In this document: one piece after another, positions 40,053 to 53,833 of the stretch
Position numbering within the stretch: position 1 is the first letter of the stretch
Layout: every line of letters begins with the position of its first letter
Virus record (IMG/VR): IMGVR_UViG_3300029787_000065
Span: 1 to 53,833 of that record
Length of the DNA: 53,833 nt
Origin: a virus
Reading direction: 5' to 3' (one strand)
Translations under genes and position numbers: made by a program
Notes under the pieces: model-generated
Database searches by the model: none
Told to the model about the DNA's origin: nothing
Seen by the model: the letters and a program-made list of their open reading frames with translations, nothing else

Positions 40053-40266
40053 ATAGTGTTTTATTAATGTCATCCACATATTTTTCTGTTATGTTCTCCA
40101 GACGCTTCATAAAACTATAAATAAGTTCAGTATTAGCATAATGAGGAAGACTAGTTTCCATGACTTCCTTAAACTCTTCAGCGGCAACATTGTTGTGTGT
40201 AACTTCAATGTTGCCGTCTCTTTGTAAAAATACTGATACTTGTGATAATGTTGCTTTTGTACTCAT
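40051..40266 (-). CDS. Hypothetical protein after the RNR gene (71 aa)
   Basis: Last gene of the - strand operon. Its start overlaps the RNR stop by four bases (ATGA). The 71 residues, MSTKATLSQVSVFLQRDGNI then helices HYANTELIYSFMKRLENITE, show no catalytic motif. Small acidic/helical, cytoplasmic, function unknown. Could be a regulator or partner of the reductase by position only. Confidence 0.75.
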   Translation of the reverse strand: MSTKATLSQVSVFLQRDGNIEVTHNNVAAEEFKEVMETSLPHYANTELIYSFMKRLENITEKYVDDINKTL

Positions 40267-42176
40267 ATATCTACTACTTCACACACCTCTCCTGTACAAG
40301 CTAATTCTTGTGACGCTTTAGTGTTGTCCTCTTTCTCATAAGTGTTAAACTTTTTCCAATCAATAGCTGTTGGCATTTCAGCTACAAGCTTCTTGTATTC
40401 TTTCTCATCACAATCTTGGTAGGGTGCTTGTCTATAACTGTGATCGGAGAAGGGTAGGAAACTGATGCCACTCAGTTCATCAAAGTTTTCGTAGCACCAG
40501 TTCCCTACTTCCATCCATTCATGCTCTTTAACGCTTACCGTTATAGAAGGTTTATGTTCGCACCAGTGTTCACTAAAATGCTTCCACAGGTGCAGTTGCT
40601 CCAGAGCCTTCATATCAGTCCGACAGATGGCAGCATTAGGTGATTTGAAAGGAAAGGAAAAAACCACCGTATTGCTTGGACTGTTAAAGTCAGGTTCATT
40701 AGGGATGTTACTGTCCATTAGGAACCTAGTTAATGGGTCTTTAACATCCCCACGCACCGTCCTGACATAATACGGAGCGTGTCGAGCATGAATACCACTA
40801 GCAGCGTTAGTAAGTTGACTAACAGTGCCAGATGGTTTCACACAAGTTGTGGCCGTAGACTGAGGTATGCCTAACTTTTCAGACCACTTCTTGTTAGTAT
40901 GTACTACAATGTCTCTTAACTTAGTTAGACGATCAGGATGTGATGCAACATTAATATATTTGCAATCCATGATGCCTGTAAGAGATACGCCTAGTAAACG
41001 TTCTTCTTCTGTATTGTTTTTCCAACGTGTACGCAGATACTTAAAGTCTGTAAGGGTAGACTGCAATGTTCCAAGAATAGCAGCAAGCTCTGCCTTACGT
41101 TCTAGTGACTTTGCAGTATCATCTGATCTGCATACAACTTCAGATAGGTTACAGAATTGATTAGGTCGTAGAATAATCTCGCTGCACGGGTTCGTGCCAA
41201 AGTCAGCTTCTTGCCTACGTCCGTTAGCTATGGCCTTGCCTTGAGCAGCCGTCCTGTTAAATATACCGCGCTCTCCAGACTTGCTTTCATATAACGAAAG
41301 CCATTCTCTCATAAACGCAGACGGGTCAGGAGTTTGTGTGTAAGCGACAGAATTGTTTGCCAAAGCCCTATGAGGATTAATAGACCACCAATTACCAGAC
41401 TTAGCAGACCGCATCCTATCATCACTAAGATTACTAAGAGATAAAAGAGCGGAACGCCTAACACCACCCACAACCACCACCTCACCTGTCTTACACACAA
41501 TATCATGACATTCGATGGAGGATAGTTTACGTCCTTTAGCATCTTGAAACACCCTTATCGTAAAGTCAAATAAGTCTTGTAATGGCTCTGGACCTGAAGC
41601 TCTGCCACCAAATGTTTTCAACCTTGCACCTGCAGGACGTATCTTAGACATATCAATCTTAGGTATCCTGTTAGTATACAAGTAGCCTATCAAGTCACGG
41701 AAACTTCTTGCCCAACCTTCTTTTGAGTCAGCTACGCTGATAACGTCCTCTGTCTCTTCAAACTGAACATCAGGTATGGTAGGCAGGTTCTCAATGTATG
41801 TACGTTCTACAGAGAAACCTACGCCAGTGCCGTTCATAAGAATATATAAAACTTCGTCAAATGATCTAGGATTATCAATAGGAATATACGAACAGTTGTA
41901 CCCTGCAATGTTCTCACGTTTTAACGCTGGGCCTGCAGTCATAAGGGATCGCATAGATGGCATGATCTCTAGGTTTAATATGGCTGACTTTACAGCTTTC
42001 ATATGGGACCACTGTGACATATCAACATCACACACAAGCTTGATATGCTCTATCATATAGTCGGTAAACCGTGTTACAGTTTCTTCCCATGTTTCTCTAC
42101 GTTGTTCATCTTCAAGCCATCGTGCATAGCGGCTCTTATGTATGAACATCTGATAATCAGTTGGTAGATTTTGCAT
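40263..42176 (-). CDS. nrdJ: Adenosylcobalamin-dependent ribonucleotide reductase (class II)
   Basis: The 637-aa enzyme converts ribonucleotides to deoxyribonucleotides for phage DNA using vitamin B12 and no second subunit. Diagnostic motifs are TNPCSEI (residues 328-334) with the thiyl radical Cys331 and Glu333, the disulphide pair C95 (GYNCSY) and C342 (NQFCNLSEVV), and a C-terminal reducing pair in ELACTGEVCEVVDI (C627, C632). GTGVGFSVE (117-124) is the phosphate-binding region. Length is that of the monomeric RTPR type. It depends on the host's B12 or a scavenged form, so it tells about the host. It overlaps both neighbouring genes. Confidence 0.96.
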   Translation of the reverse strand: MQNLPTDYQMFIHKSRYARWLEDEQRRETWEETVTRFTDYMIEHIKLVCDVDMSQWSHMKAVKSAILNLEIMPSMRSLMTAGPALKRENIAGYNCSYIPIDNPRSFDEVLYILMNGTGVGFSVERTYIENLPTIPDVQFEETEDVISVADSKEGWARSFRDLIGYLYTNRIPKIDMSKIRPAGARLKTFGGRASGPEPLQDLFDFTIRVFQDAKGRKLSSIECHDIVCKTGEVVVVGGVRRSALLSLSNLSDDRMRSAKSGNWWSINPHRALANNSVAYTQTPDPSAFMREWLSLYESKSGERGIFNRTAAQGKAIANGRRQEADFGTNPCSEIILRPNQFCNLSEVVCRSDDTAKSLERKAELAAILGTLQSTLTDFKYLRTRWKNNTEEERLLGVSLTGIMDCKYINVASHPDRLTKLRDIVVHTNKKWSEKLGIPQSTATTCVKPSGTVSQLTNAASGIHARHAPYYVRTVRGDVKDPLTRFLMDSNIPNEPDFNSPSNTVVFSFPFKSPNAAICRTDMKALEQLHLWKHFSEHWCEHKPSITVSVKEHEWMEVGNWCYENFDELSGISFLPFSDHSYRQAPYQDCDEKEYKKLVAEMPTAIDWKKFNTYEKEDNTKASQELACTGEVCEVVDI

Positions 42177-42402
42177 CTTCTACTTTATCCTTTAATCTCG
42201 TAAGATACCATAAACACTTTCCTAAGTCCTCTGCGGCTTTACCTTTGTGCCTGTATCTAATTATATATTTTAACACGTTACCTTTTAAGTATCCAAGAAA
42301 CTCATTGCTTGTCATAGACATTTCTATCAGGTCTATAGCCTCAACGTCAAGCTTATTGTAATGCTCTGGGCTGTTGACGGGATCATGCCCCTTTGTCGTC
42401 AT
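42157..42402 (-). CDS. DUF3310-type protein
   Basis: 81 residues with HDPVNSPEHYNKLDVEAIDL then NEFLGYLKGNVLKYIIRYRH and KGKAAEDLGKCLWYLTRL, the complete DUF3310 signature. This family is known in many phages, sometimes called a nucleotide kinase-like protein, though its activity is not established. The ATG at 42402 is preferred over 42408 because GAGG lies six bases upstream. It overlaps the RNR start by 20 bases, in an operon for nucleotide supply and replication. Confidence 0.9.
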   Translation of the reverse strand: MTTKGHDPVNSPEHYNKLDVEAIDLIEMSMTSNEFLGYLKGNVLKYIIRYRHKGKAAEDLGKCLWYLTRLKDKVEDAKSTN

Positions 42403-42787
42403 CTTCATCCTCTAACGTCACCGTAACTGTCAGGTGTTCCCTGTCTTTCTCTGTAAACAAGTTCAGAGTATGCTCTTGATTTCGATAAGAGTCAAGTGAA
42501 ATTATGTTACTTTCTGAATATTCTTCTTCTTCCATAAGTCTTTCACCAAGACTATACACTTCTTCTGCACTGTTCTGTAGTATGTGTACTAAACCTTTAG
42601 CAAGAACTTGACACATATTTGCAGGACCGTCATCGTTATTTGTTTTATCTAAACAAAACATAAAGAACTGATCTTCCTCATCATCTGTGTTCTCCATGAC
42701 AAGATAAACACGGTTATCTTTTAGTTCTTTCTTCTCTGTTTCAATAATAGCTTTCATTTTAGCTAAGTCATCGTGCATATCATCCAT
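42383..42787 (-). CDS. Acidic hypothetical protein (134 aa)
   Basis: MDDMHDDLAKMKAIIETEKK opens a helical N-terminus, then VYLVMENTDDEEDQFFMFCL and a C-terminal run TVTLEDEDDDKGA. Very acidic, perhaps DNA-mimicking, but no family recognised. It overlaps the resolvase end by eight bases and the DUF3310 start by 20. Confidence 0.75.
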   Translation of the reverse strand: MDDMHDDLAKMKAIIETEKKELKDNRVYLVMENTDDEEDQFFMFCLDKTNNDDGPANMCQVLAKGLVHILQNSAEEVYSLGERLMEEEEYSESNIISLDSYRNQEHTLNLFTEKDREHLTVTVTLEDEDDDKGA

Positions 42788-43151
42788 AATTTTTCATCCA
42801 TCCTATGGGTATAACGCCTTTTGCATACTTAAAATTATTTTTATTGCACCAGTCAGCATATGTTGTTTTTGATTTCTTACTTAACTTTACCTTATCGTTC
42901 TGAAACACGAAACGTAAATCAAGATCAGGATATTGCTCTGCTATAAGTTTATGTTTTGATCTATCAGAACCAACAAACTGTCCTTTAGTCTCTATAAACA
43001 TATCATGTTCAGGCAGATAGAAGTCTGGTGTGTACGTTCTATGCTTTGGAACATAAGTAAATTTGTGTTGCTCATACTCAAACTTTATGTTGTTGTTTTC
43101 TAGATATGTCGCAAAGTCAAACTCAAATCTAGACCTGTAACGTTCTGTCAT
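42780..43151 (-). CDS. Endonuclease I-like Holliday junction resolvase
   Basis: The 123-aa product resembles T7 gp3: RSRFEFDFATYLENNNIKF, YTPDFYLPEHDMFIETKGQF with D43 and E54/K56 as the PD-(D/E)XK core, then a helix (SDRSKHKLIAEQYPDLDLRF). In T7 the dimer cuts branched DNA and helps degrade host DNA. Length is like T7's 149 aa but shorter, so the domain-swap arm may be reduced. It begins with an ATG overlapping its upstream neighbour and lies between replication genes, as expected for removing junctions before packaging. Confidence 0.88.
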   Translation of the reverse strand: MTERYRSRFEFDFATYLENNNIKFEYEQHKFTYVPKHRTYTPDFYLPEHDMFIETKGQFVGSDRSKHKLIAEQYPDLDLRFVFQNDKVKLSKKSKTTYADWCNKNNFKYAKGVIPIGWMKNYG

Positions 43152-43546
43152 TTGTATCTTTTCAATAAATTAGTCATGTGTTTTTCTATGTAGTCATGAA
43201 CTTTAGTAGAGTGTTTCTTTATATTTATCATACTGAAGTCTTGGTTATCTACTGACTCACGACAAAGAATGACAACACCACCCTCTGTTAAATAATTGTT
43301 TACTACTGACCAAGACTTATCAAACTCTTCTTTAAATATATGAAACTCATTGTCTTTGTAGTAAGACTCTGGCTCTCTACCACTAAACTTCTTTACAAGA
43401 ATAGGTGTAGTATTATTGCCATCTCTTAAAATAATATTTACAAGAGGATCACCTTTTCGTTTACTGTGATCCATGTATGCAAATAAACAATTTCTATTAT
43501 CAAGAACATCATGACTATACACTGTGTGCATTACAATTAATGGCAT
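43148..43546 (-). CDS. Hypothetical replication-operon protein (132 aa)
   Basis: Sequence starts MPLIVMHTVYSHDVLDNRNC then LFAYMDHSKRKGDPLVNIIL. A central FHIFKEEFDKSWSVVNNYLT and VVILCRESVDN suggest a compact alpha/beta domain with no visible catalytic triad. The ATG overlaps the primase stop (TAATG), and the gene ends inside the resolvase start. Function unknown. Confidence 0.75.
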   Translation of the reverse strand: MPLIVMHTVYSHDVLDNRNCLFAYMDHSKRKGDPLVNIILRDGNNTTPILVKKFSGREPESYYKDNEFHIFKEEFDKSWSVVNNYLTEGGVVILCRESVDNQDFSMINIKKHSTKVHDYIEKHMTNLLKRYK

Positions 43547-45144
43547 TAATCATCATCCTCAAAATCTAAACTCTTCTCTCGTATACGTCCATCTGTAAAG
43601 TCGTAGTACAGTTTAGCGCATAGCCCTGTTAAACCTGTAAATCTGTTCTTAATAATACGAACATACGTTGTGTGACGTTCTATAGGATCATCTGCTTGTC
43701 CATTACGTTCCAAACCTATTACAATATCACTAAGTTGTCCTATACTCGCAGAACCTCGTAGATCAGACAACGACGTATTTAGACCCTCTTCATGAGAACC
43801 CTGCATTGGTCTGCGAAGATGTGAGACAACTACTAGTGATATGTTTAGCTCTTGCACCAACGTTCTTAGTTTAGTCATGCACTCATCTATCGTTCTTCTC
43901 TCATCAAACGAGTGTTCTTGAGAGCTAACGAGTATGCTGATATGATCTAGTATAATATACTTACACTTGGCTGCTTTTGCAAAGTATCTCACACGAGCCA
44001 AAACATTATCAATGGTGTTTGATCCAAAGTGATCAAAGAAAAAGTATCTTCCTGATCCTACAGTGTCCTCGTAGGACTGCTTGTACTCTTCCTCTGTGTA
44101 CACAGTATCTGGTAGATGTAGCTGCTTACCTAACTCTAAGCTCATCATAGATTCAGCGGTGCTTCTAACGCTCTCTTCCATGAACATCATACCTATGTTG
44201 TCTTCCGTATTATCGTAGATATACTTTACAATCTCTTTTAGAAAACTACTCTTACCCATACCAGTGCCAGCACACACTGTAATAAGCTCTCCCATACGTA
44301 TGCCATAAGTCATTCTATTCATACCCTCGTATGGGTAATCTATGGCAGTCTTAGCTGGTCCTTCCTTCAATGTGTCCCATAACTGTGTACCTGCAATGAT
44401 ACCATCAGGAGTGTAGCTGTCAGCGTTCCACCATGCCTTTATAAATTCCTCTGAATCCTTTGCTACAAGATACTCGTTGGGATCTTTTCTGTTAAGCCTT
44501 ATAATTTTAGCTTTGGGTGATAACAACTCTGCAGCTTTCTTGGCAGCTTTCTTTCCAGGTTTATCGTTATCAAAGCATATGATAATATTGTCATAGGACA
44601 TAAGATATTCAAAGGATTTTTCAATATCGTTAACGACACCAGAAGCTCCGTTGCGTATGGATAACACAGGCCACGTAGAACCCATCATTTGGTAAGTTGA
44701 CAACGCATCAAGCTCACCCTCACACAACGTTACGTACTTACCCCTTGCTGGAAACTTATTCTGTCCGAATAGAGTGGCTTGTTTCCAGTCACCTGTAGTC
44801 TGGAATGTTTTATCACCGTTGAACGACTTGCCACGGATTTTATTTGCAATCCAATCTCCGTCCTCGTTATAAAACGGATAGTATTGTTGTGTTCCTTCTA
44901 CTGTAACACTGTAAGCTTTACATGTTTCTTTTGTTATGCCTCTATCTGGTATTGGTAAAGTCTTACCAGAGGATAGATACTTAGCGTTCATTGGCGTGTT
45001 TGTCATGGGTTCCTCTATCAATTCATCTTCAGGCTTTGTGTGTCTGTCACACGCAAAACAGTATGTGCTACCATCCTCGTTTATTGCCAGCGCATCACTG
45101 CTGCTACAGTTAGGGCAGGGCTGGTGTGTTTTCTGATAATTCAT
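43546..45144 (-). CDS. Primase-helicase (T7 gp4-like)
   Basis: 532 residues: an N-terminal zinc-binding Cys4 (C10, C13, C29, C32; CPNCSSSD and CFACDR), TOPRIM primase with CEGELDA (141-147) and FDND (191-194), then the hexameric helicase with Walker A GTGMGKSS (293-300), Walker B YIILDH (396-401; D400), VVVSHLRRP and KNRFTG (R501, arginine-finger type). It unwinds the fork and lays primers for PolA. Length is normal for this family. Its start overlaps the small membrane gene. Confidence 0.95.
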   Translation of the reverse strand: MNYQKTHQPCPNCSSSDALAINEDGSTYCFACDRHTKPEDELIEEPMTNTPMNAKYLSSGKTLPIPDRGITKETCKAYSVTVEGTQQYYPFYNEDGDWIANKIRGKSFNGDKTFQTTGDWKQATLFGQNKFPARGKYVTLCEGELDALSTYQMMGSTWPVLSIRNGASGVVNDIEKSFEYLMSYDNIIICFDNDKPGKKAAKKAAELLSPKAKIIRLNRKDPNEYLVAKDSEEFIKAWWNADSYTPDGIIAGTQLWDTLKEGPAKTAIDYPYEGMNRMTYGIRMGELITVCAGTGMGKSSFLKEIVKYIYDNTEDNIGMMFMEESVRSTAESMMSLELGKQLHLPDTVYTEEEYKQSYEDTVGSGRYFFFDHFGSNTIDNVLARVRYFAKAAKCKYIILDHISILVSSQEHSFDERRTIDECMTKLRTLVQELNISLVVVSHLRRPMQGSHEEGLNTSLSDLRGSASIGQLSDIVIGLERNGQADDPIERHTTYVRIIKNRFTGLTGLCAKLYYDFTDGRIREKSLDFEDDD

Positions 45145-45386
45145 TTATCAAACAAAGTAGCTAATATTCCGTTAAGAAAGATAGATAATGCAACGCTGTT
45201 AACTACAATAAGCGCACGATCATTCCATACAATAGACACATATACCCAACCGATTATTCCTATTGTATGCAAGTAAAGATTATAAGGGAATATATTCTGA
45301 GCAGTAAATATCATTCCTGTCATCAAAACAATAGACGATGACCATTTCACATACCATACTTTATTCTTTACTTTCCTATCTTTCAT
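45141..45386 (-). CDS. Small three-helix membrane protein
   Basis: The 81-aa product has three hydrophobic stretches: SSIVLMTGMIFTAQNIF, LHTIGIIGWVYVSIVW and LIVVNSVALSIFLNGILATL. It starts MKDRKVKNKVWYVKW, basic at the N-terminus. Overlaps both neighbours (four bases with primase, one with the exonuclease, TAATG), so it is co-translated with replication genes. From memory it resembles short cyanophage membrane proteins (YLHTIGIIGWVYVSIVWNDR). A membrane anchor for the replication machinery is one possibility. Confidence 0.75.
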   Translation of the reverse strand: MKDRKVKNKVWYVKWSSSIVLMTGMIFTAQNIFPYNLYLHTIGIIGWVYVSIVWNDRALIVVNSVALSIFLNGILATLFDK

Positions 45387-46228
45387 TACAAAACCTCGTC
45401 TACTTTAGGCTCCTTCTCTATATGAGTAAAGTATGTCAATCCACTAGCATAACGAAATACTCTAAGTCCTTGACCCTCGTTAGCCTCTTCCCAACATTCA
45501 TATTTATAATCACAGTACGTGCAGTTCTTGTCAAGTATCCTGTTACCCTGTTTGCCTTCTGCCTTATCCTCGTAACATTTGCTAGGAACAGTGTCCTCTT
45601 TCATTGTTTTTTTTAATTCAATGATACGCTCTTTAGCATCAATCATAGATAGTTCATCAATCTCAACCAACGCCATCTCTGCATTGTTTTTGTTGTATGC
45701 TAGAAAGTAACCTACGTCACCACCCTCTGCTTGAACATATCCACTTATCTGACCTATGTATCCGAAAGGATCATCATGTTCTAAGTCATTAAATTTAAAT
45801 TTTCTAAAACCAAAGTCAGATGCTGATTTAACGTCCACAAGAACACCGTCTATCTTTGCATCAATGTGTCCTTTGACGCCCTCTACTACAACTTCTTTCT
45901 GTCTATCTGTAACTTTATGACCAGCTTCCTGCGCTAAGAATAAAAGAAATGCTTCAACTAAGTTACCAAAAAATAATTTAAGTTTGGTCTGTCCATCTAA
46001 CTTAGAAGGTGTCTTATCTCTGAACTCGTACCATAACTTTCTTGAGTGTTTACCGATAGAAGACATTCTAAGACTACCGTGTCTTACTCTTTCTTCTGGT
46101 GATAAAAAGTTTTCAATGTCCTCACGTAGAGCTTTATAGAACTCTTGTAAGTTTCTTTCACTGAAACCTTGCTTACCATCCTCTAACATACTGTGTATGT
46201 CTGTTATTAATGTATTGATATTAGCCAT
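45386..46228 (-). CDS. PD-(D/E)XK exonuclease, Cas4/RecB-like
   Basis: 280 residues. The nuclease core is GHIDAKIDGVLVDVKSAS (Asp, Asp-x-Lys) after the helix FFGNLVEAFLLFLAQEAGHK. GYIGQISGYVQ supplies the conserved Gln helix, and three Cys sit near the C-terminus (KNCTYCDYKYECW), the layout of Cas4-type nucleases with an iron-sulphur cluster, here possibly incomplete. It is likely the phage recombination exonuclease of the T7 gp6 role. It starts right after the terminator-like hairpin at 46241-46280. Confidence 0.85.
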   Translation of the reverse strand: MANINTLITDIHSMLEDGKQGFSERNLQEFYKALREDIENFLSPEERVRHGSLRMSSIGKHSRKLWYEFRDKTPSKLDGQTKLKLFFGNLVEAFLLFLAQEAGHKVTDRQKEVVVEGVKGHIDAKIDGVLVDVKSASDFGFRKFKFNDLEHDDPFGYIGQISGYVQAEGGDVGYFLAYNKNNAEMALVEIDELSMIDAKERIIELKKTMKEDTVPSKCYEDKAEGKQGNRILDKNCTYCDYKYECWEEANEGQGLRVFRYASGLTYFTHIEKEPKVDEVL

Positions 46229-46240
46229 GATACTCCCAGT

Positions 46241-46280
46241 AAAAATAAAATATTAGTAGCCCCGCCCCTCGCTCTAATAT
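46241..46280 (-). terminator. Attenuator hairpin between SSB and exonuclease (- strand)
   Basis: On the - strand ATATTAGAGC pairs with GCT-A-CTAATAT (46250-46280; 10 bp with one bulged A), loop GAGGGGCGGG, followed by TTTTATTTTT (46241-46250). A second hairpin, GACAAC (46282-46287) with GTTGTC (46296-46301), lies just upstream. Together they likely stop most transcripts after SSB, so SSB is made at a higher level than the nuclease and helicase. Confidence 0.65.
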
Positions 46281-46332
46281 CGACAACCACCTAAAGTTGT
46301 CCCTACCTACCATTAGAAAGCGACTCTACCTA

Positions 46333-46776
46333 CTACTCCAAGTCGTCATCATCCTCCCCTGTATCGAAAGGAATATCGTCATCGTCTTCAGCTTCTAGTT
46401 CATCATCGTTATCATAAGCAACTAAAGATAGTACCATAAGACTGCTAAGTCCTGGGCTTACACCTGACTTACCTTTGAAAGTCCATTCATATGGTTTAAT
46501 AGAAGCTTTAATCTCCGAACCGTTACCAATAGCAGTATCTTCATCCCACTTATTTTTTTTACGGTCCATAACATTAGGCTTATATTTACCTGACTTTGCT
46601 GTAATAAAGTCACCCTTATCAGCTTTATCACCTTCGCCTTTCTTAACGTCGATGCCAACTGCTTTAAGGTTCTTAATGGTCATCTTATCAAGCTGACAAA
46701 TATCAACCTGATACTTTCCACTAAGATTGTTAGGCTCAAATACTGATGCCCACTGCGCTGTTCCTCTCACTATCAT
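46333..46776 (-). CDS. Single-stranded DNA-binding protein (T7 gp2.5-like)
   Basis: 147 residues. The ATG at 46776 is chosen because AAAGGAG lies just upstream and because an in-frame ATG at 46821 falls inside the -10 region of the promoter and cannot be in the transcript. MIVRGTAQWASVFEPNNLSG opens an OB-fold pattern, WTFKGKSGVSPGLSSLMVLS is the typical central strand, and the end is a run of Asp/Glu (ELEAEDDDDIPFDTGEDDDD), the acidic tail that contacts polymerase and helicase. It is set apart in the operon, with its own promoter upstream and an attenuator downstream. Confidence 0.9.
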   Translation of the reverse strand: MIVRGTAQWASVFEPNNLSGKYQVDICQLDKMTIKNLKAVGIDVKKGEGDKADKGDFITAKSGKYKPNVMDRKKNKWDEDTAIGNGSEIKASIKPYEWTFKGKSGVSPGLSSLMVLSLVAYDNDDELEAEDDDDIPFDTGEDDDDLE

Positions 46777-46812
46777 AATAAGCTCCTTTGCGATGAGAGT
46801 TAAGATATGTAC

Positions 46813-46840
46813 ATTATACACACATTTATGTGTTAGTCAA
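46813..46840 (-). promoter_or_regulatory. SSB promoter with a palindromic operator in its spacer (- strand)
   Basis: Reading the - strand: TTGACT (46840-46835), 16 bases, TATAAT (46818-46813). The 16-base spacer contains the perfect inverted repeat ACACAT-AA-ATGTGT (46820-46833 on the + strand). The -35 overlaps the last codons and stop of the upstream nuclease gene. A repressor or activator dimer binding between -35 and -10 would control SSB. Confidence 0.8.
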
Positions 46841-47348
46841 CGACCTTTTTCCAAATATCTACATTATCTGTTGTGTAAAGTTCGTGAAGAACATCATCAA
46901 GTTTAACTAAAGTAATAACATCTTTTCTATTTGGTCTTTGGTATTTTTTATATAACGCTTCTCTACTTGTACTTACGAATACTTCACTAACTTTTTGCTC
47001 ACAGAAATGTTGTAACATCGCACGATCTACTAACACAAAATCTTTCTCGCGTTCAAAAACAATTTTGTCAGCTTTACCATACAACCATCCATTATTACCT
47101 CTTACATTTTTAAATTCTATCCATGTAAGATCATCATTGTACTCACTGTCTCGTCTAGAAAGTTTCTTACGAGATTTTACATCAACTGAAATAACATGCT
47201 CATGTTGTGTTAGGTACAAGTCGATATGCTTGTGTATGTTAGCATCTTTAGTTGCATTTAAAACTTCATAACCTTTTTTATTTGCAACATTAACAAAAGA
47301 AATCTCTGCTTTAAGTCCAGCGTTTAATTCTAATGTGTTTCTGCCCAT
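46833..47348 (-). CDS. PD-(D/E)XK-type nuclease-like protein
   Basis: 171 residues with the motif HIDLYLTQHEHVISVDVKSR (Asp...Asp-Val-Lys), a short PD-(D/E)XK core, then WIEFKNVRGNNGWLYG. It would bind metal and cut DNA. It starts within the 3' end of the polymerase gene (18 bases overlap) and ends where the SSB promoter begins. Function in replication or restriction of host DNA is inferred from motif and position only. Confidence 0.7.
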   Translation of the reverse strand: MGRNTLELNAGLKAEISFVNVANKKGYEVLNATKDANIHKHIDLYLTQHEHVISVDVKSRKKLSRRDSEYNDDLTWIEFKNVRGNNGWLYGKADKIVFEREKDFVLVDRAMLQHFCEQKVSEVFVSTSREALYKKYQRPNRKDVITLVKLDDVLHELYTTDNVDIWKKVVD

Positions 47349-49057
47349 GTCCTGCCTACCTTTGCATCTGCATTTAAGGGTAATCTTACACCAAGAATCT
47401 GACCAGCTTGGCGTATGGTTTCGTCAGCACCTTTAACCATTGCTTGTACATCATCATTGTGTACCTCGTATTGTAACTCATCATGTATGGTATTGACAAG
47501 TCTTGATTTTAAATTATTCCTTTTAATGTATTTGTGCATACAGATAGACCATTGTTTACAAGCTATAGCACCTGCACCTTGTAACAGTGTATTCAACGCT
47601 GCATGTTGGTGTCTTACTAAAATACGTCTGCCATCTAGTCCTTTGATATCTCCTTTCTCAGCAACTCTCTGAACCCTCACTATCAACCTGTTTAAGGCTG
47701 GCATGTTGTTAAGAAAATCCCTTTTTAGTATTGCACCGTCTCGCGCTGTGCCGCCTACTACACTGCCTAGTTTCTCTGCGCCAGCCCCATACAAAAACGC
47801 ATAAATAAATGTTTTGCTTTGCGCTCTAGTTGATAGTCCTGCAGCTTTCTGATTAACAGTGTGCGGATCACCATACAATACCTCTTCTATGTAGTCCTCA
47901 TCACGCATGTAATGTGCTAACATCCTTAGTTCTAGACCCTTCGCGTCCATACCTACAATACTAAAATTGTCAGCATCTTCCACCGTAAAACATTCCCTAC
48001 ATTCTCTGCCATATGGTTTCTCAGACGAAACAACGTTAGCCATGTTTGGTGCAGCGTGTGTCATCCTACCCGTCACAGCCCCCATTGGTATAACCTTACC
48101 ATGCACACGGTTGTCTGACTCACAAGCTTCTAACCAACTTTCTACAGTCTTCCAACGAGATTCTAACATCTTCCACTCTGCTAACTTCTTAGCAGCTAGT
48201 GGTGCATCGTTAGATATTGTTTCTAAATTCTGTTCGCATATTTTAGGTGAACCTTTAGGTGTAAACACAGTGGGACTCCACCCACAATGATCTAGCCTTG
48301 CAATAATTTGTTTAGGACTAGCTAGGTTGAAAGGTTCAAGCTTAAAATATGAGAAGGGACCGCCTACCGTTTTGTCAGCTTCAGGTATGTCACGTAACCC
48401 AACAAGAGACATAGAACCATCTTTTTTTATTCTAGGTGTAACCTCACGAATAAACTTAGGTATAGGCTTGAAGTCTTGTTTTATTTCTTCCTCTATCTTC
48501 TTAGCTTTGTTGTATGTTTCTTGGTATAAACTGTTTGCTTTTTTAACATCTAGATAAAAACCATTCTTACTTTGTTGGTTGATAACATGTGCTATGTTAT
48601 GTTCTAGTTGTATAGACTGTTCTGAAAACTCTTTGCCTTCTTGCAGTAAATGTAGATATATTTTTTCTGTAACTGCAACATCACGTTTGCAATAATCTAT
48701 CATCTTATCAGTTAGCCTATCAAACTCATGGAACTCCATTTTGTTGTATGCTAAACGTTTACCCCAAGCATTTAATGAATGACCATCGTCTCTATTAGGA
48801 TTAAATAGTCTAGACATAACAAGAGTATCTCTAACTTGTTTTATTTTAATATTAGTATTCCATAATTTATTTAAAACAGGAATATCGAACTCAATGCCAT
48901 TATGTGTTATTATAATATCATCATTATTAAACACAGGCATATTGTCTTTTGTTGTAATAACTTTAACATTGTTTGTTTTTAATTCTTGTATTACAACACA
49001 CCATATTTGAGATGCTGTAAGACTGTCTGTTTCTATATCTAAAACAAATATACTCAT
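47330..49057 (-). CDS. DNA polymerase, family A with 3'-5' exonuclease
   Basis: 575 residues from ATG 49057; a frame to 49105 adds 16 residues without a site and begins with MNKKSYQLY, which is not polymerase-like. The exonuclease has FVLDIET (D7, E9), FDIP (D58) and CKRDVAVT (D126). Polymerase motif A is VGMDAKGLELRML (D371), motif B RAQSKTFIYAFLYG (R411, K415, Y419) and motif C NTIHDELQ (H525-D526-E527). The E. coli F762-equivalent is Tyr419, as in T7 polymerase. It replicates the phage genome with the gp4-like helicase. No thioredoxin-loop insert can be judged. Confidence 0.96.
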   Translation of the reverse strand: MSIFVLDIETDSLTASQIWCVVIQELKTNNVKVITTKDNMPVFNNDDIIITHNGIEFDIPVLNKLWNTNIKIKQVRDTLVMSRLFNPNRDDGHSLNAWGKRLAYNKMEFHEFDRLTDKMIDYCKRDVAVTEKIYLHLLQEGKEFSEQSIQLEHNIAHVINQQSKNGFYLDVKKANSLYQETYNKAKKIEEEIKQDFKPIPKFIREVTPRIKKDGSMSLVGLRDIPEADKTVGGPFSYFKLEPFNLASPKQIIARLDHCGWSPTVFTPKGSPKICEQNLETISNDAPLAAKKLAEWKMLESRWKTVESWLEACESDNRVHGKVIPMGAVTGRMTHAAPNMANVVSSEKPYGRECRECFTVEDADNFSIVGMDAKGLELRMLAHYMRDEDYIEEVLYGDPHTVNQKAAGLSTRAQSKTFIYAFLYGAGAEKLGSVVGGTARDGAILKRDFLNNMPALNRLIVRVQRVAEKGDIKGLDGRRILVRHQHAALNTLLQGAGAIACKQWSICMHKYIKRNNLKSRLVNTIHDELQYEVHNDDVQAMVKGADETIRQAGQILGVRLPLNADAKVGRTWAETH

Positions 49058-49112
49058 ACTACATAGACCTTGGGTGAGGTATAACTGGTAAGATTTTTTA
49101 TTCAATTAGTGC

Positions 49113-49146
49113 TTGACAGTAGTTTAAAGAGAGATTAAGGTATCCT
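49113..49146 (+). promoter_or_regulatory. + strand early promoter candidate
   Basis: TTGACA at 49113-49118 with the flank AGTGCTTGACAG, shared with the promoter at 50511. The best -10 candidates are TAAGGT (49136-49141; 17-base spacer, 3 of 6) and TATCCT (49141-49146; 22-base spacer). It would start the SH3-lipoprotein gene's transcript. Confidence 0.5.
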
Positions 49147-49160
49147 TGAATGAATGTCAA
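49132..49160 (-). promoter_or_regulatory. - strand promoter candidate for the polymerase operon
   Basis: Reading the - strand: TTGACA (49160-49155), 17 bases, TAATCT (49137-49132). The -35 is perfect, the -10 matches 3 of 6. It overlaps the + strand promoter, giving a divergent control point. The leader to the polymerase ATG is about 70 bases. Confidence 0.4.
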
Positions 49161-49187
49161 CAACTTTTTTTAGGAAAGGAAAAAGTC

Positions 49188-49751
49188 ATGTTTATTCAAA
49201 GGTTTAGAGAGCTTGTAGGTGGTCAATTCTTCACCGTTAAATTCGTCAAAAAGGACGGAACAGATCGAATCATGACCTGCCGCCTTGGTGTTAAAAAATA
49301 CTCCAATGGAAGACCGCAAACCGCAGACCCAGACAAGTACATTGTTGGATGGGAACCTGCTACAAAACAATATCGTAATATCAACATTGATACATTGCAG
49401 TGGGTAAAATGCAAAGGTATTTCCGTTAACCTTATGAAAGAACCAGAGATGCACTTAGTTAAACGTAATGGACTATGGAGTTCATTAGGTTTATTCTTAA
49501 TGGTTGTAACTCTAGCTGCTTGTTCTCCTGGGCAGATAGTTGCTAACAATGGTGCAGTGAGTAGTGACATTGGAGCTACAAGCTATGCTTGGGTAGGATG
49601 TCACAGAGTAGTGGAGAACCCGAGTCCTACGGGTGAGTATGCTGTTAGCATATATGCTGGTGATCTACCAGTAGGAGCTAAATTTTATCTTAAACAAGTT
49701 AGTAAGGATGGAACGGTTGGCCCCGTTACCACTGGTGAACCCTGTGAGTAA
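49188..49751 (+). CDS. SH3/Sm-like domain (WYL_2-type) joined to a lipobox segment
   Basis: ATG at 49188 with AGGAAAGGA; a start at 49146 is in frame but has no site. Residues 1-80 match a small beta-barrel phage domain: RFRELVGGQFFTVKFVKKDG, DPDKYIVGWEPATKQYRNIN. After it comes VNLMKEPEMHLVKRNG, then a hydrophobic helix and lipobox SSLGLFLMVVTLAAC (98-112), then 75 polar residues. A cytosolic barrel before an export signal is odd. A second initiation at the Met of NLMKEP (residue 83) or MHLVK (88) would give a normal lipoprotein, so the gene may make two products or be a recent fusion. Confidence 0.75.
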   Translation: MFIQRFRELVGGQFFTVKFVKKDGTDRIMTCRLGVKKYSNGRPQTADPDKYIVGWEPATKQYRNINIDTLQWVKCKGISVNLMKEPEMHLVKRNGLWSSLGLFLMVVTLAACSPGQIVANNGAVSSDIGATSYAWVGCHRVVENPSPTGEYAVSIYAGDLPVGAKFYLKQVSKDGTVGPVTTGEPCE

Positions 49752-49980
49752 TGTTGTTGATACTGAGATTCTACGTAGTAAAATAACTTCGTTAGAACAT
49801 AAGATTAAATCTTTAGAGTGTTTTATACTAGATACGTATATCGCTGATTTTAATCAAACAACTGTTAGTGATGTGTTAAAATATGAAAGCATAGAAGATA
49901 TTATAGAACACGTTGTTACAAGCAAAATAGAAATACATGTAAGTAATCAAGCAATAAGTTTGGTTAAGAAATATGACTGA
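49744..49980 (+). CDS. Small coiled-coil hypothetical protein (78 aa)
   Basis: GTG at 49744 is chosen because it overlaps the previous stop by eight bases; an ATG at 49708 would extend far into that gene. The product has VDTEILRSKITSLEHKIKSL, a leucine-heptad coil, then acidic helices (YESIEDIIEHVVTSK). No family recognised. Overlaps the next gene by eight bases, so co-translated in an early cassette. Confidence 0.6.
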   Translation: MSNVVDTEILRSKITSLEHKIKSLECFILDTYIADFNQTTVSDVLKYESIEDIIEHVVTSKIEIHVSNQAISLVKKYD

Positions 49981-50233
49981 TGCTGATAGAAAAAATTTAC
50001 TAAAGATAAGTTATCGTGTTGTAGATGAAGTTCTAGACGATTTGTTAAATGATGAGGAAGGTGAAACAACTGTTTTGTTATTGAGTGGTGCTTTACACGC
50101 TGTATTTGAAAAAATAGAAACTACATACGGTAGTGGATTACATTCTACTGAGTTTATTGTTGCAACTTTACAAAATTGTTTAGAGAATCAGATTAGATTG
50201 TTAGAACCTAACGATGATGATGTAATACATTAG
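49973..50233 (+). CDS. Hypothetical early protein (86 aa)
   Basis: ATG at 49973 overlaps the previous gene. All-helical acidic product (RKNLLKISYRVVDEVLDDLL, EEGETTVLLLSGALHAVFEK) without motif. Possibly a small host-takeover protein. No family recognised. Confidence 0.7.
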   Translation: MTDADRKNLLKISYRVVDEVLDDLLNDEEGETTVLLLSGALHAVFEKIETTYGSGLHSTEFIVATLQNCLENQIRLLEPNDDDVIH

Positions 50234-50248
50234 CCATAAGGATATGCT

Positions 50249-50485
50249 ATGAAAATTGTCAGCCTCATAAAGAATTTTGTCAGCCGCATAAAACAAATTG
50301 TCAGCCCTAAAAAACAAATTGTCAGCCCTGAAAAGAAAATTGTCAGCCAGTCTGACTATGATGAGTTGCGTGTCTTGCGTGATAACGTTTACGGTCTTCA
50401 GCGTGACTTGCAAGAAGCTTACAGAAGAATTAAAAAATTAAACGATAACCTACAACGTATTGCAACAAAAGAAGGTAAGAAGTAG
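50249..50485 (+). CDS. 78-aa protein built on a 21-bp repeat
   Basis: ATG at 50249 with AAGGA upstream. The first 34 residues repeat a 7-residue unit: KIVSLIK, NFVSRIK, QIVSPKK, QIVSPEK, KIVSQSD. The DNA repeat is AATTGTCAGCC at an exact 21-bp period. The rest is a coiled coil (YDELRVLRDNVYGLQRDLQE then AYRRIKKLNDNLQ). The N-terminal repeat is basic and amphipathic. It may be a real protein in which the DNA repeat also serves as a protein-binding array, or a site array that happens to be open. Confidence 0.6.
   Translation: MKIVSLIKNFVSRIKQIVSPKKQIVSPEKKIVSQSDYDELRVLRDNVYGLQRDLQEAYRRIKKLNDNLQRIATKEGKK
50254..50348. repeat. Five-copy AATTGTCAGCC array with 21-bp period
   Basis: Copies at 50254-50264, 50275-50285 (TTTTGTCAGCC), 50296-50306, 50317-50327 and 50338-50348. 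Starts are exactly 21 bp apart, two helical turns, so bound proteins would face one side of the DNA. The same word recurs at 52501-52554. The array is inside a gene, so it is both coding and possibly a binding site (iteron- or operator-like). Confidence 0.85.
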
Positions 50486-50510
50486 TAATGTAATGTTGCA
50501 ATAAAAGTGC

Positions 50511-50538
50511 TTGACAGGGTATTTATAGTGTGCATAAT
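50511..50538 (+). promoter_or_regulatory. Strong early promoter upstream of the CDKHVV gene
   Basis: TTGACA (50511-50516), 16 bases, CATAAT (50533-50538), 11 of 12 consensus bases. Flank AGTGCTTGACAG is shared with 49113. It lies in the 108-base gap after 50485 and leads to the gene at 50594. Confidence 0.8.
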
Positions 50539-50593
50539 CGAATTGCTTAGTTGATCTATTCTTATAATGTAACAATGCAAAGGAAACAATGTT

Positions 50594-51310
50594 ATGAATA
50601 TCTTCTTTCTTTCAACTAACCCAGAGCTTGCAGTATTAGATCACTGTGATAAGCATGTGGTCAAGATGGTTCTTGAAACAACACAAATGATGTGTACCGC
50701 TCACCGATTATTAGATGGTGATGTTGCAGCAGATGCAATGGGACTTTACAAGACAGCTTATGCCAACCACCCTATGACAAAATGGGTTCGTGAAAATCAA
50801 TTCAATTATGCTTGGACGTACCGCCTGTTAAAAGAACTCTGCAGCGAGTACACCTACCGTTACGACAGAGTACACGCCACTCAATCTAAAGGTATCTTAG
50901 ATGCTTTGCAAAAAGTGCCTGAGAATATTTGTCTTGGTACAGAGACAGGACGAACTGTGCCGCCTATGTGTATGCCTGATAAATATAAGAACAGGTTTAC
51001 AGGTAAAACTACGTTTACAGATGTAGTTGATGCCTACCGCAGATACTACATAACCATCCATCATTACCTCTTACTTGGAGAGAAAAAAGATTTTGCACGT
51101 TGGACTAACAGACCACAACCTAAGTGGTGGCCTGTATCTGCTAAGACATATGATTGCAGTCTTTGCAAAGAAACGTTTAAAGGTTACGGTAACAATCCTT
51201 GGCCTCTTGCAGAAGGTCGCTGCTGCGATGATTGCAATGTTGATGTGTTAGTTGCTAGGGTTGCAGGGTTACAGGAGAGACAAAATGCTAGAACAAGCAA
51301 AGATACTTAG
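50594..51310 (+). CDS. Conserved phage protein with C-terminal zinc ribbon
   Basis: 238 residues starting MNIFFLSTNPELAVLDHCDK then HVVKMVLETTQMMCTAHRLL, a signature I recall from hypothetical proteins of many marine phages. HPMTKWVRENQFNYAWTYRL and FARWTNRPQPKWWPV follow. The C-terminus is a zinc ribbon: CSLCKETFKGYGNNPWPLAE then GRCCDDCNVDVLVARV, an element that also appears alone in small phage proteins (from memory). No catalytic residues are known to me. AAAGGAAAC precedes the ATG. Probably early, host- or DNA-directed. Confidence 0.8.
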   Translation: MNIFFLSTNPELAVLDHCDKHVVKMVLETTQMMCTAHRLLDGDVAADAMGLYKTAYANHPMTKWVRENQFNYAWTYRLLKELCSEYTYRYDRVHATQSKGILDALQKVPENICLGTETGRTVPPMCMPDKYKNRFTGKTTFTDVVDAYRRYYITIHHYLLLGEKKDFARWTNRPQPKWWPVSAKTYDCSLCKETFKGYGNNPWPLAEGRCCDDCNVDVLVARVAGLQERQNARTSKDT

Positions 51311-51557
51311 ACAAGCCACTAGAAGAAAACGTCTTTGGAACGAACACGTTAGTGCAATGAAAGAAGTTAGTATAAAGCCGCTATCTTGGGAAGACTTCAA
51401 ACGTGTTTACAGAAATGAGACAACGGACATGAGGTTGTTACAAAAAGCTGTACAACTTGTAGCTAAGAAGTCATACGATCAGTCTGTTGATTCATTACGT
51501 GTTAAGGATGAGTTGCAACAATTTAAACTACCTAGGAAAGGAAAGTACAGTGCTTGA
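51285..51557 (+). CDS. Basic helical hypothetical protein (90 aa)
   Basis: ATG at 51285 is chosen because AGGAG lies eight bases upstream; an in-frame ATG at 51252 lies inside the previous gene. Product: MLEQAKILRQATRRKRLWNE, then SWEDFKRVYRNETTDMRLLQ. Basic and helical, possibly DNA-binding. No family recognised. Confidence 0.7.
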   Translation: MLEQAKILRQATRRKRLWNEHVSAMKEVSIKPLSWEDFKRVYRNETTDMRLLQKAVQLVAKKSYDQSVDSLRVKDELQQFKLPRKGKYSA

Positions 51558-51834
51558 AGATAAGATTACAGAAGAACAGACACACATTGACATACAACAA
51601 CGTAAGTACGACCAGCAGTTTATTGTGTGGGAACGCATGTATTGCTGGAAAGCTGGCGATAATACCTATGTTCCAGAAACTGAAGACGATAGGATACCGC
51701 CTTATGCCCTACACAAACGGTGGGTTCCTGTAACAGTGTGTCGTAAGAAGTCGGAAGCAGTAGACTATTGCCGTGATAGGTTTGGTAGGAATTGCTTTAA
51801 AGATAACGACAAGGTAAAGGTCGCCTTCACATGA
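51550..51834 (+). CDS. Hypothetical early protein with GTG start (94 aa)
   Basis: GTG at 51550 is preferred: AAAGGAAA is upstream and it overlaps the previous stop by eight bases. A longer frame from 51487 has an unlikely N-terminus. Product has VLEDKITEEQTHIDIQQRKY, WERMYCWKAGDNTYV and KKSEAVDYCRDRFGRNCF. It looks like a small soluble alpha/beta domain. Function unknown. Confidence 0.65.
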   Translation: MLEDKITEEQTHIDIQQRKYDQQFIVWERMYCWKAGDNTYVPETEDDRIPPYALHKRWVPVTVCRKKSEAVDYCRDRFGRNCFKDNDKVKVAFT

Positions 51835-52052
51835 AGTGGACTATTGAATTGAAATGTGGTAACTGTGAGGATGGCCTAGTAGCTTATCTCATTGCAGACG
51901 GACCTGATGACAATGTAACAGAAGGTTTCGAGTGCTTAGATTGTAATGGTAAAGGCTACACCGAACACACAGTACTATATGAGAGTGCAGATGATCTACA
52001 TGCTGACTACAACAAAGATGACATCATTAGCTACTGTTTACACGTTCTTTAA
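51831..52052 (+). CDS. Small zinc-finger protein (DnaJ-type CxxC pairs)
   Basis: 73 residues: KCGNCEDGLVAYLIADGP and FECLDCNGKGYTEHTVLY, two CxxC pairs (C9/C12, C35/C38), the second followed by GKG as in DnaJ zinc fingers. ATG overlaps the previous stop by four bases (ATGA). Likely a small zinc protein binding nucleic acid or protein; it resembles DnaJ-like modules in marine phages, from memory. Confidence 0.75.
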   Translation: MKWTIELKCGNCEDGLVAYLIADGPDDNVTEGFECLDCNGKGYTEHTVLYESADDLHADYNKDDIISYCLHVL

Positions 52053-52064
52053 AAGGAAAGAATA

Positions 52065-52229
52065 ATGCAGAAACAACCGATACGACTAATATCTAAAGTT
52101 AGTAAAAACAAATGGAAAGTGCAACATAGTGATGGTGCAGTAACTTTTCATAGAACCAAGAAAGCAGCCAAAGAGTACAAACACACCGTTGTAGTCTTTG
52201 ATCCTTTTGTGGGCATCTACAGTGATTAA
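52065..52229 (+). CDS. 54-aa basic protein
   Basis: ATG at 52065 with AAAAGGAAAG, the same ribosome site style as its neighbours, and TAA at 52227-52229 just before the next site AAGGAG. Product MQKQPIRLISKVSKNKWKVQ then HSDGAVTFHRTKKAAKEYKH and TVVVFDPFVGIYSD looks like a small beta-strand plus helix domain. Function unknown. Confidence 0.7.
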   Translation: MQKQPIRLISKVSKNKWKVQHSDGAVTFHRTKKAAKEYKHTVVVFDPFVGIYSD

Positions 52230-52240
52230 GGAGACTAACA

Positions 52241-52501
52241 ATGGAACATAGCAGTAATCTAATTCACAGCACCTACAGAGGAATGACTGTTTCTATCTGC
52301 CATCATACCTCTAACGTTCACAGCACGATGGAACGAAACTCTGATAATCTCAAGAAACTCCACGAGACTAGAGAGGTTGCCGTAATACGTAATGTGGCAA
52401 GCCAGCAAGAGATTGAGGTTATAGATAGGTGGTATGATTTTGAATCATTACAAGATGCGCTAGAAGAAGCTAGACGCTGGATTGATGCAAAGCTGGACTA
52501 A
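52241..52501 (+). CDS. Hypothetical early protein (86 aa)
   Basis: ATG at 52241 with AAGGAG. Product opens MEHSSNLIHSTYRGMTVSIC, rich in His, and ends in a helical YDFESLQDALEEARRWIDAK. No family recognised. It ends where the second AATTGTCAGCC array begins (its stop overlaps the first base). Confidence 0.75.
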   Translation: MEHSSNLIHSTYRGMTVSICHHTSNVHSTMERNSDNLKKLHETREVAVIRNVASQQEIEVIDRWYDFESLQDALEEARRWIDAKLD

Positions 52502-52554
52502 ATTGTCAGCCTATTGCACAATAATATTGTCAGCCTAATACAAAATTGTCAGCC
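52501..52554. repeat. Three-copy (A/T)ATTGTCAGCC array
   Basis: Copies at 52501-52511, 52525-52535 (TATTGTCAGCC) and 52544-52554, with starts 24 and 19 bp apart. Between the first two, TATTGCACAATA and CAATAATATTG are short inverted repeats. Same word as the 50254 array, here outside a clear gene. Confidence 0.75.
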
Positions 52555-52566
52555 TATTACTTTATT

Positions 52567-52800
52567 ATGGGGCGGGGCGTAACACAGAACGATGCCGTAG
52601 TCGGGTCGGTTGGTGCTGCGCTCCGTCGCCGCTTCGCGGTCGCCGCCGCCGCCTCGCTCTCGCTTCGCTTGCAACACGATAAGCCAAGCCTAGAACGTAA
52701 CGCGAAAAGCCTAGAACGTAACAATCTAATAAAATTTATTGACAAGGATTCTCCAGCCATTAAATTGGTTGCTGGCAATCATGCCGTTACCGACATATGA
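52567..52800 (+). CDS. Doubtful ORF over a GC-rich palindromic stretch
   Basis: An ATG at 52567 opens 77 codons but has no ribosome site, and the composition is unlike neighbours: Ala/Arg-rich GSVGAALRRRFAVAAAASLS then SLERNAKSLERN from a direct DNA repeat. Probably not a gene, or a very young one. Kept with low confidence because it fills most of a 240-base gap. Confidence 0.2.
   Translation: MGRGVTQNDAVVGSVGAALRRRFAVAAAASLSLRLQHDKPSLERNAKSLERNNLIKFIDKDSPAIKLVAGNHAVTDI
52569..52675. other. GC-rich palindromic island
   Basis: GGGGCGGGG at the start, then CCGTCGCCGCTTCGCGGTCG with a CCGC-TTC-GCGG hairpin (near 52629-52639), and CTCGCTCTCGCTTCGCTTGC. Composition is far more GC-rich than the flanks. 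It resembles short palindromic intergenic elements of bacterial genomes, but no match can be tested here. Confidence 0.6.
52686..52722. repeat. Two-copy AAGCCTAGAACGTAAC repeat, 21-bp period
   Basis: Copies at 52686-52701 and 52707-52722; starts 21 bp apart, the same period as the 50254 array. They lie just before the promoter candidate at 52739, and could be binding sites for a regulator. Confidence 0.7.
52739..52766 (+). promoter_or_regulatory. Promoter candidate for the DUF932 gene
   Basis: TTGACA (52739-52744), 16 bases, TAAATT (52761-52766; 4 of 6). It leads to the gene at 52812, which has GAAAGGAAAG before its ATG. The repeats at 52686-52722 lie immediately upstream. Confidence 0.5.
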
Positions 52801-52811
52801 AAGGAAAGAAT

Positions 52812-53833
52812 ATGTCACATGAAGTTGAGAATATGGCCTTCGCCAACGAAGTGCCTTGGCACGGTTTAGGGCAGCAAGTCAGCAATGATATGACCCCTGC
52901 AGAGATGATGGCAGCAGCGGGATGTGATTGGGAGGTGGCATTGACACAAAACCACTACCCGCCCACCCACGAACATCACCCTAGTGAGCCGATTGAGAAC
53001 AGCCATTTTATTGAGAGGTTATCTGACGGTGCAATCTTGGGAGAATATGTTGCTGGTGATTATAAGCCAGTGCAGAACACCGAATTGTTCGATTTCTTCC
53101 AGAGCTTCATTGATGATGGTTCCATGTATTTACATACGGCGGGCAGCTTGTTTGGTGGCCGTAAAGTGTGGTGCATGGCCACGACTAAAGAGGGCTTCAT
53201 GCTCGGCAAGGATGACGAGGTGGTAAACAATTTGTTGTTCACAATCTCGCACACTGGCAAGAACAGTAACAGCGCATTGAATACACCTGTTCGCGTTGTC
53301 TGTGCCAATACCATGCGGTTGGCCATGTCACAGGCTGACGACATTGTCACCCATAACCATCGCGCCGTGTTTGATGCAGAAGCATTGAAGGTCGCGCTTG
53401 GTGTTAGCTCACAAAACTTCGGAGAGTTTGAGGAACTAGCCAAGGCGATGGCTAAGAAGGTTCTGTCAGGCGAGGAGGAAATAGACTTCTTCCGCTCCGT
53501 CTTTGGTGGCAAGGAACGCACCGACAGCAGCGGCAAGGTTATACACTCTGAAGGTGTCAGGAAAGCAATGGCATATTTCCGTGGCCAGGAGTTCAACCCA
53601 ACCGCCAGCAAGCGTAAAGAGACTAAAGATGTCACCATTGCCAAACTACAGGAACAAGTGGAGGCATTGATGGCAGGTAAAAGCCTAGAAGAGATCGAGG
53701 TCGATCCCGAATTGATCGAGGCACCCTCCGCTGCGGTCAACTATGGCTGGGATATGAAGAGTGCCAAAGGGACGCTTTGGGGTGCTTTCAATACCGTTAC
53801 CTACATGACTGACCACAAACCAGTGCGTGATCA
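52812..53833 (+). CDS. DUF932/phage-plasmid-like protein, 3' end cut by the window
   Basis: 340 codons are present with no stop before the edge. The family signature is clear: MAFANEVPWHGLGQQVSNDM, GDYKPVQNTELFDFFQSFID, RVVCANTMRLAMSQ and KGTLWGAFNTVTYMTDHKPV. Such proteins are widespread on plasmids and phages but without known activity; some lie with recombination genes. ATG 52812 has GAAAGGAAAG. If the window ends are joined, the frame reaches a TAG at 11-13 after four more codons (QRKQ), which would shorten the usual C-terminus. Codons are GC-richer than in the late genes. Confidence 0.85.
   Translation, partial: MSHEVENMAFANEVPWHGLGQQVSNDMTPAEMMAAAGCDWEVALTQNHYPPTHEHHPSEPIENSHFIERLSDGAILGEYVAGDYKPVQNTELFDFFQSFIDDGSMYLHTAGSLFGGRKVWCMATTKEGFMLGKDDEVVNNLLFTISHTGKNSNSALNTPVRVVCANTMRLAMSQADDIVTHNHRAVFDAEALKVALGVSSQNFGEFEELAKAMAKKVLSGEEEIDFFRSVFGGKERTDSSGKVIHSEGVRKAMAYFRGQEFNPTASKRKETKDVTIAKLQEQVEALMAGKSLEEIEVDPELIEAPSAAVNYGWDMKSAKGTLWGAFNTVTYMTDHKPVRD

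Follow-up and report, generated by a model that had tools for sequence, protein, structure and literature searches.

Iterons, the direct repeats of theta-replicating plasmids and of the phage lambda origin, occur in AT-rich DNA and may lie in coding sequence. Chi sites, which are recognised by the RecBCD or AddAB enzyme of the host, are short, asymmetric, strand-biased and independent of the reading frame, and they differ by clade.

The stoperators of phage L5 are asymmetric sites oriented with transcription, present in 24 copies in L5 and 34 in Bxb1; their sequence is clade-specific, that of L5 being GGTGGMTGTCAAG (PMC3029335, PMC6550527, PMC9283540). They are proposed to act through a phage-encoded HTH repressor whose binding halts elongating RNA polymerase in one orientation. 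T7 primase primes at (G/T)2GTC sites and its primers include ACAA (PMC12839067).

The stretch of DNA analyzed here in full (the window) is a 53,833-bp record of an uncultured virus related to the HMO-2011-type phages, a dominant and widely distributed marine group (PMC9038755). A search of that article's text gave no match for promoters or repressors, and its matches to "repeat" concern other things. A short word, repeated in two arrays of the window, shares properties with each of the systems above and differs from each of them, as described below.

Gene layout and the two arrays of the window

The terminase of the window phage is 48-55% identical to those of HMO-2011, Roseobacter CRP and Pelagibacter HTVC phages, and its polymerase A is 42-44% identical to that of HTVC103P/104P/115P. 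The structural genes include an SU10-type portal and adaptor; the replication and metabolism genes code for a T7 gp4-like primase-helicase, a Cas4-type exonuclease and a B12-type ribonucleotide reductase. The late genes extend rightward from the terminase as far as about 40 kb; the replication genes are read leftward, between 49 and 40 kb; the early genes are read rightward from 49.2 kb, through both arrays and up to the terminase. GC skew tracks gene orientation.

Two replication modules were observed within one structural clade (40263-49105 in the window; also L016, L248 and L250): a T7-type fused primase-helicase or an HMO-type split primase and helicase, the latter accompanied by a polymerase that has a DnaJ-like domain. 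A phrog_3704 protein (annotated as ferredoxin), encoded at 2391-3077, is found in few relatives. The 171-aa protein gene overlaps the end of the polymerase gene and shows a weak match to the NCBIfam model PRK14689; it is missing from several relatives, including several array-bearing genomes.

The sequence-only reading had described eight copies of an 11-bp word in two arrays. All eight were found (Table 1), both arrays being reported by Tandem Repeats Finder as well, but the 11-mer was exact in only six of the eight; what all eight share is the word TTGTCAGCC. The deviating copies, the second of array 1 (TTTTGTCAGCC) and the second of array 2 (TATTGTCAGCC), depart from the 11-mer in its first base or first two bases. 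The exact 21-bp period described for array 1 was confirmed, its copies starting at 50254, 50275, 50296, 50317 and 50338; the copies of array 2 start at 52501, 52525 and 52544 (steps of 24 and 19 bp). Word and 21-bp spacing of array 1 are retained in L005, L007 and L018.

Table 1. Features of the early region of the window and its surroundings
Feature	Position	Strand	Remarks
171-aa gene	46833..47348	-	antisense words as in polA; left edge of polar zone
Polar zone	46833..52560	+	W-TTGTCA-R-C enriched (~2-2.8 per kb in relatives); spans divergent early promoters
Dispersed word TTGTCAGCT	47065..47073	+	antisense in leftward 171-aa gene
DNA polymerase A gene (polA)	47330..48985	-	carries antisense words; 33 homologs compared
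Dispersed word TTGTCAGCA	47967..47975	+	antisense in DNA polymerase gene
Dispersed word TTGTCAGCT	48372..48380	+	antisense in DNA polymerase gene
First rightward early gene	49188..49751	+	N-terminal WYL_2-like SH3 domain (sub-threshold Pfam match in a homolog)
78-aa ORF	50249..50485	+	first 33 residues = array 1
Array 1	50254..50348	+	five TTGTCAGCC words, 21-bp period, inside 78-aa ORF
Putative early promoter CAATAAAAGTGCTTGACA-16-CATAAT	50499..50538	+	~150 bp after array 1; consensus match, context shared with relatives
Array 2	52501..52554	+	three TTGTCAGCC words; starts at stop codon of preceding gene
Putative early promoter (TTGACA at 52739)	52732..52766	+	between array 2 and DUF932
DUF932 / TIGR03299 gene	52812..53833	+	cut by contig end; landmark 3' of array 2

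Translation of the reading frame confirmed that array 1 also encodes 7-residue protein repeats (MKIVSLIKNFVSRIKQIVSPKKQIVSPEKKIVSQ..., of the KIVSxxK type) at the start of the ORF. No Pfam or PHROG match was obtained for this 78-aa ORF, and among the genomes compared a homolog was found only in G001. Approximately 270 bp separate array 2 from the DUF932 gene that follows it.

In the window, a putative promoter of the TTGACA-16 type lies 150-250 bp downstream from each array, in a AATAAAAGTnCTTGA-like context also present in relatives. Matches of the TTGACA-16 type alone occur at chance frequency, so only the shared context counts.

A GC-rich stretch (52575-52690, beginning GGGGCGGGGCG) lies directly 3' of array 2, reaching 0.71 in 100-bp windows in a phage that is otherwise AT-rich. 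It is common to G001 and L018; G005 has other GC-rich, terminator-like DNA instead. This G-rich stretch was considered as part of an R-loop origin and rejected, being missing in most relatives.

Conservation and strand polarity of the word in the clade

Matches with up to two mismatches were at chance level (17 vs 15.5 expected). Exact words were not: in the 15.5 kb that precede the terminase gene, TTGTCAGC was found 11 times vs 0.3 expected. When 2.9 million viral contigs were scanned for three spaced TTGTCAGCC words, 22 stretches were obtained, most of them relatives by shared proteins; the remaining ones (L002, L003, L009, L017 and L021) resemble Ala-Asp-Lys type coding repeats. The consensus for the clade was W-TTGTCA-R-C, with the tail GCC or AAC depending on the subclade. 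In an unbiased count of clustered 8-mers over 1.8 Mb of the clade TTGTCAGC ranked first, and the second tail, TTTTGTCAAC, was seen in other subclades. A literature search for the word with phage and repeat returned no relevant paper.

The arrays have AT-rich spacers. Those of relatives occupy different genes, different frames and intergenic gaps; arrays follow a stop codon directly or lie at the start of an ORF, near the ends of early genes. Array 1 of the window is read in frame 1 (KIVS). The array of L011/L014/L022 is read in frame 0 (KLSA), except for a copy that is shifted 16 bp into frame 1. The word is thus kept in another frame (KLSALKT vs KIVSPKK), in intergenic gaps and in unrelated genes, as expected from the earlier proposal that the array has a DNA role beyond its protein; selection at the peptide level is ruled out by the frame changes and the intergenic copies. 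The repeat is a DNA-level signal, and a larger one than was first seen.

Conservation of the word in related phages had been envisaged together with conservation of its spacing. The word is kept clade-wide even when the protein differs, but the phase of the spacing is not constant: the spacings between neighbouring words, 132 distinct ones across the clade, showed a 3-bp periodicity, which follows the reading frame, and no 10.5-bp periodicity (p ~0.19). This contradicts the phasing by two helical turns that had been proposed for array 1.

An iteron origin or upstream activator was weighed against these data. In such a system an initiator or regulator would bind duplex DNA at both arrays and, more weakly, at the dispersed copies. 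The arrays are, like iterons, direct repeats in AT-rich DNA for which a coding location is possible. A pair of arrays separated by about 2 kb is found in many genomes, and array 2 is nearly fixed before DUF932: it was found ~225-360 bp upstream, its end lying ~225-320 bp from the gene, in most DUF932-bearing relatives with enough flank, and not at this position in G004 or L137. The gap before DUF932, roughly 300 bp, is unusually long for so gene-dense a phage, and the DNA between array 2 and DUF932 differs among relatives. Iterons differ from this element in their constant spacing and phasing; here several arrays and dispersed copies extend over 7 kb with strict polarity, and the words in polA vary in position but not in orientation, a constraint that would be needless for a non-polar site. 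Neither a compact iteron origin nor a promoter operator by itself accounts for the ~7-kb dispersal on a single strand, including the antisense copies in polA. We consider this explanation improbable.

The polarity was apparent in whole records, where close TTGTCA pairs lay nearly all on one strand per record; the reversed control word gave at most one close pair in any record. TTGTCA occurred 18-41 times per record on the + strand, concentrated in the early zone and strongly strand-biased there. Counts of TTGTCAG per 2.5-kb bin of the zone were 24/13/15/5 for the + strand and 1/1/4/1 for the - strand. For 42 non-redundant loci, the + strand density of TTGTCA was ~1.6-2.8 per kb between approximately -2.3 and +4.5 kb from the polymerase start, that of the opposite strand in the same interval was 0.2-0.35 per kb and at most 0.95, and beyond -2.3 kb the word was found at ~0.5-0.9 per kb.

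The zone runs unbroken across the divergent promoters, so that polarity is a property of the DNA strand and not of the gene. In G006, whose early region has shifted far away from polA, the words go with the early region. W-TTGTCA-R-C is kept on one strand of the early region, over ~5-7 kb, independently of reading frame and gene direction.

A motif acting in the RNA sense on the mRNA of each gene was ruled out, the polA words being antisense.

Overprinting of genes under codon control

For codon-controlled enrichment, synonymous codons were permuted within each gene; such shuffles leave codon-pair bias in and the loci are related, which inflates the z-scores, and control genes are the main guard. 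In the early + genes, with codons fixed, TTGTCA was the top of the 4096 hexamers (57 vs 21.6 expected) and its reverse complement was at expectation (40 vs 38). In the leftward genes the top three hexamers, CTGACA, GCTGAC and TGACAA, are the same word on the + strand. With codons again fixed, TGACAA was observed 110 times in the 33 polA homologs (32.9 expected) and 28 times in the 171-aa gene (7.5 expected). No antisense enrichment was detected in the genes for SSB, exonuclease, primase and RNR, and in the distal leftward genes the word, counted in the sense of each gene, slightly exceeded expectation (45 vs 28.9). For the window by itself the codon test was weak (17 vs 10.9), and the case rests on the clade.

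The other TTGTCAGC copies of the window, which are the dispersed words of Table 1, had been set aside as mere isolated Ala-Asp-Lys codons. They belong to this codon-independent, strand-specific enrichment of the clade. The polA words are spread over 49 alignment columns at shifting positions, all in one orientation, and some positions are shared by many homologs. When polA was combined with the 171-aa gene, the word was found 137 times vs 39 expected, flanked by A/T before and by A/G then C after; its one-base variants were all near background, the strongest with z ~3.

These results bear on a neutral origin, in which micro-repeats would have slipped in fast-evolving small genes and the polA enrichment would reflect conserved Ala-Asp-Lys codons. 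The preference of array spacings for multiples of three and the recurrent polA positions would fit. The spacers, however, diverge while the words persist, the shifting polA words are far above codon shuffles, neighbouring genes show none, and single-base variants of the word stay near background. The codon test of polA and the variant test already contradict this origin, which we hold to be very improbable.

Relatives with the HMO-type module provide an independent replicate: here the overprinted gene is the primase, which adjoins the divergence, and not the distal polymerase; in G012 the helicase is overprinted as well as the primase. Overprinting of the primase in these relatives indicates that position matters and not gene identity.

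In 265 non-redundant late genes, sense TTGTCA was found 11 times vs 28.9 expected, none of 300 shuffles being as low, and its reverse complement was normal (136 vs 144.8). This depletion is not unique, a lower z being obtained for 231 of 4032 non-palindromic hexamers, and is thus supportive, not decisive.

The strongest rival to the polar block proposed below is a replication-origin zone, in which the words would be single-strand sites for a T7-type primase on the strand that a rightward fork displaces or uses as lagging template, and the arrays would give the first lagging-strand primers. The word shares with the 5'-(G/T)2GTC-3' sites of T7 gp4 primase a TTGTC core, strand specificity and lack of phasing; TTGTC yields the primer ACAA, which is among those of T7 primase (PMC12839067). 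The window phage encodes a T7 gp4-like primase-helicase, with the primase at 43546-45144. Toprim primases are present in those relatives that carry the other module, and one of these primases gives a weak zinc-ribbon match; strand polarity, missing helical phasing and frame independence would all be accommodated. Strong pppACAA primers would be predicted on TTGTCAGCC but not on TTGTCTGCC templates. The word differs from T7 primase sites, however, in its need for the A after TTGTC and for the W and R flanks: other members of the site class (TTGTCC, TTGTCG, TTGTCT and TGGTCA) showed no enrichment. It is also clustered in one zone and not spread along the lagging strand or over the remainder of either strand, HTVC115P and HTVC103P have a homologous primase-helicase but no arrays, and the late-gene depletion is not predicted. 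On balance we regard a primase code as unlikely.

A possible polar block of rightward RNA polymerase

All words of the zone face a rightward polymerase, so that a polar block or factor-dependent terminator of this polymerase is their most likely function. We propose, with a probability of about 0.4, that the word is a polar site for a phage-specified factor which would block rightward RNA polymerase in the manner of L5 stoperators. The factor would bind the word, a putative binding site, and the bound words would act as a polar block or factor-dependent terminator. Rightward early genes might be switched off in this way, and also insulated from rightward read-through arriving antisense through the polymerase gene. 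Alternatively, the factor may recognise the word as nascent RNA and not as duplex DNA, and the same pattern would be expected. A single rule, that the word affects a rightward polymerase, would account for the choice of strand, the zone, the position of arrays close to gene ends and the under-representation in late genes.

Like the word described here, the stoperators of Cluster A mycobacteriophages are asymmetric, number 20-34 copies per genome in one orientation relative to transcription, often occupy short intergenic gaps, and vary in consensus by subcluster. Their core, TGTCAA(G), resembles TGTCA(A/G)C of the word, a short similarity which may be due to chance. Unlike them, the word forms tandem arrays, is limited to the early zone, and is also found antisense in leftward genes. 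Stoperators are not known to form tight tandem arrays, which weighs against the polar block.

Orientation with the gene, as in stoperators, was found in the early + genes but not in polA and the 171-aa gene. In these two the words oppose transcription of the gene, so that the model needs rightward antisense transcription there, itself hypothetical. The window phage also belongs to a different lineage, and no L5-type repressor or lysogeny gene was found. Since the polA words oppose their gene and no repressor was found, we suggest that the word works like a stoperator, not that it is one.

No arrays were found in the records, several of them covered in part, of six isolates (HMO-2011, HTVC033P, CRP-1, CRP-3, HTVC115P and HTVC103P), and TTGTCA was unremarkable in the zones of the four isolates tested. 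A scan of bacterial genomes yielded only ten short repeats, apparently unrelated to phages. The element looks clade-specific, which suggests a phage-encoded reader.

One strand of L252 (HTVC033P) contains 42 copies of GGTGGTGG/CCACCACC, probably glycine-rich coding sequence. Direct repeats of the type AATTGTCAGCCTGAGC... and the 21-bp AATTGTCAGCCTCAAAAGCTC were seen in the bacterial sequences L264, L258 (Bacteroidota) and L260 (cyanobacterium), apparently unrelated to the phage word.

The distribution bears as well on a recombination signal that would, like Chi, limit a helicase-nuclease entering from the right. The word is, as Chi sites are, short, asymmetric, strand-polar and frame-independent, with no spacing rule and a sequence that varies with the clade, and the phage encodes a Cas4-type exonuclease. 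Unlike Chi sites, it is local and in tandem, limited to one zone and not spread over the remaining genome; isolates with the same exonuclease have no arrays. Such a role seems to us distinctly improbable.

With respect to a reader for the polar block, the proteins tested yielded no L5-like repressor, no integrase and no other trans factor, and no cognate repressor with an HTH domain was found among the window proteins scanned, which included part of the small ORFs. The WYL_2-like early gene, shared by 8 of the 10 array genomes and by none of the six isolates, codes for a weak candidate for the reader. A universal role of the T7-like fused primase is weakened by relatives with split primase and helicase that also have the word; the 171-aa protein is ruled out as universal reader, several array genomes being without the gene.

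It comes close to an even chance that the element represents an undescribed polar nucleic-acid code: a strand-specific hexamer written over the gene bordering the early divergence, both in arrays and dispersed, which would control one-way traffic of RNA polymerase or replisome and whose reader would diverge together with the word from one subclade to the next.

The overprinting of a conserved polymerase gene with a strand-polar word shows a regulatory layer missed by gene annotation. If the roadblock system is true, the stoperator principle would extend to a clade in which no lysogeny gene has been detected so far; if instead the word is a primase or origin code, replication starts would be locatable from sequence alone.
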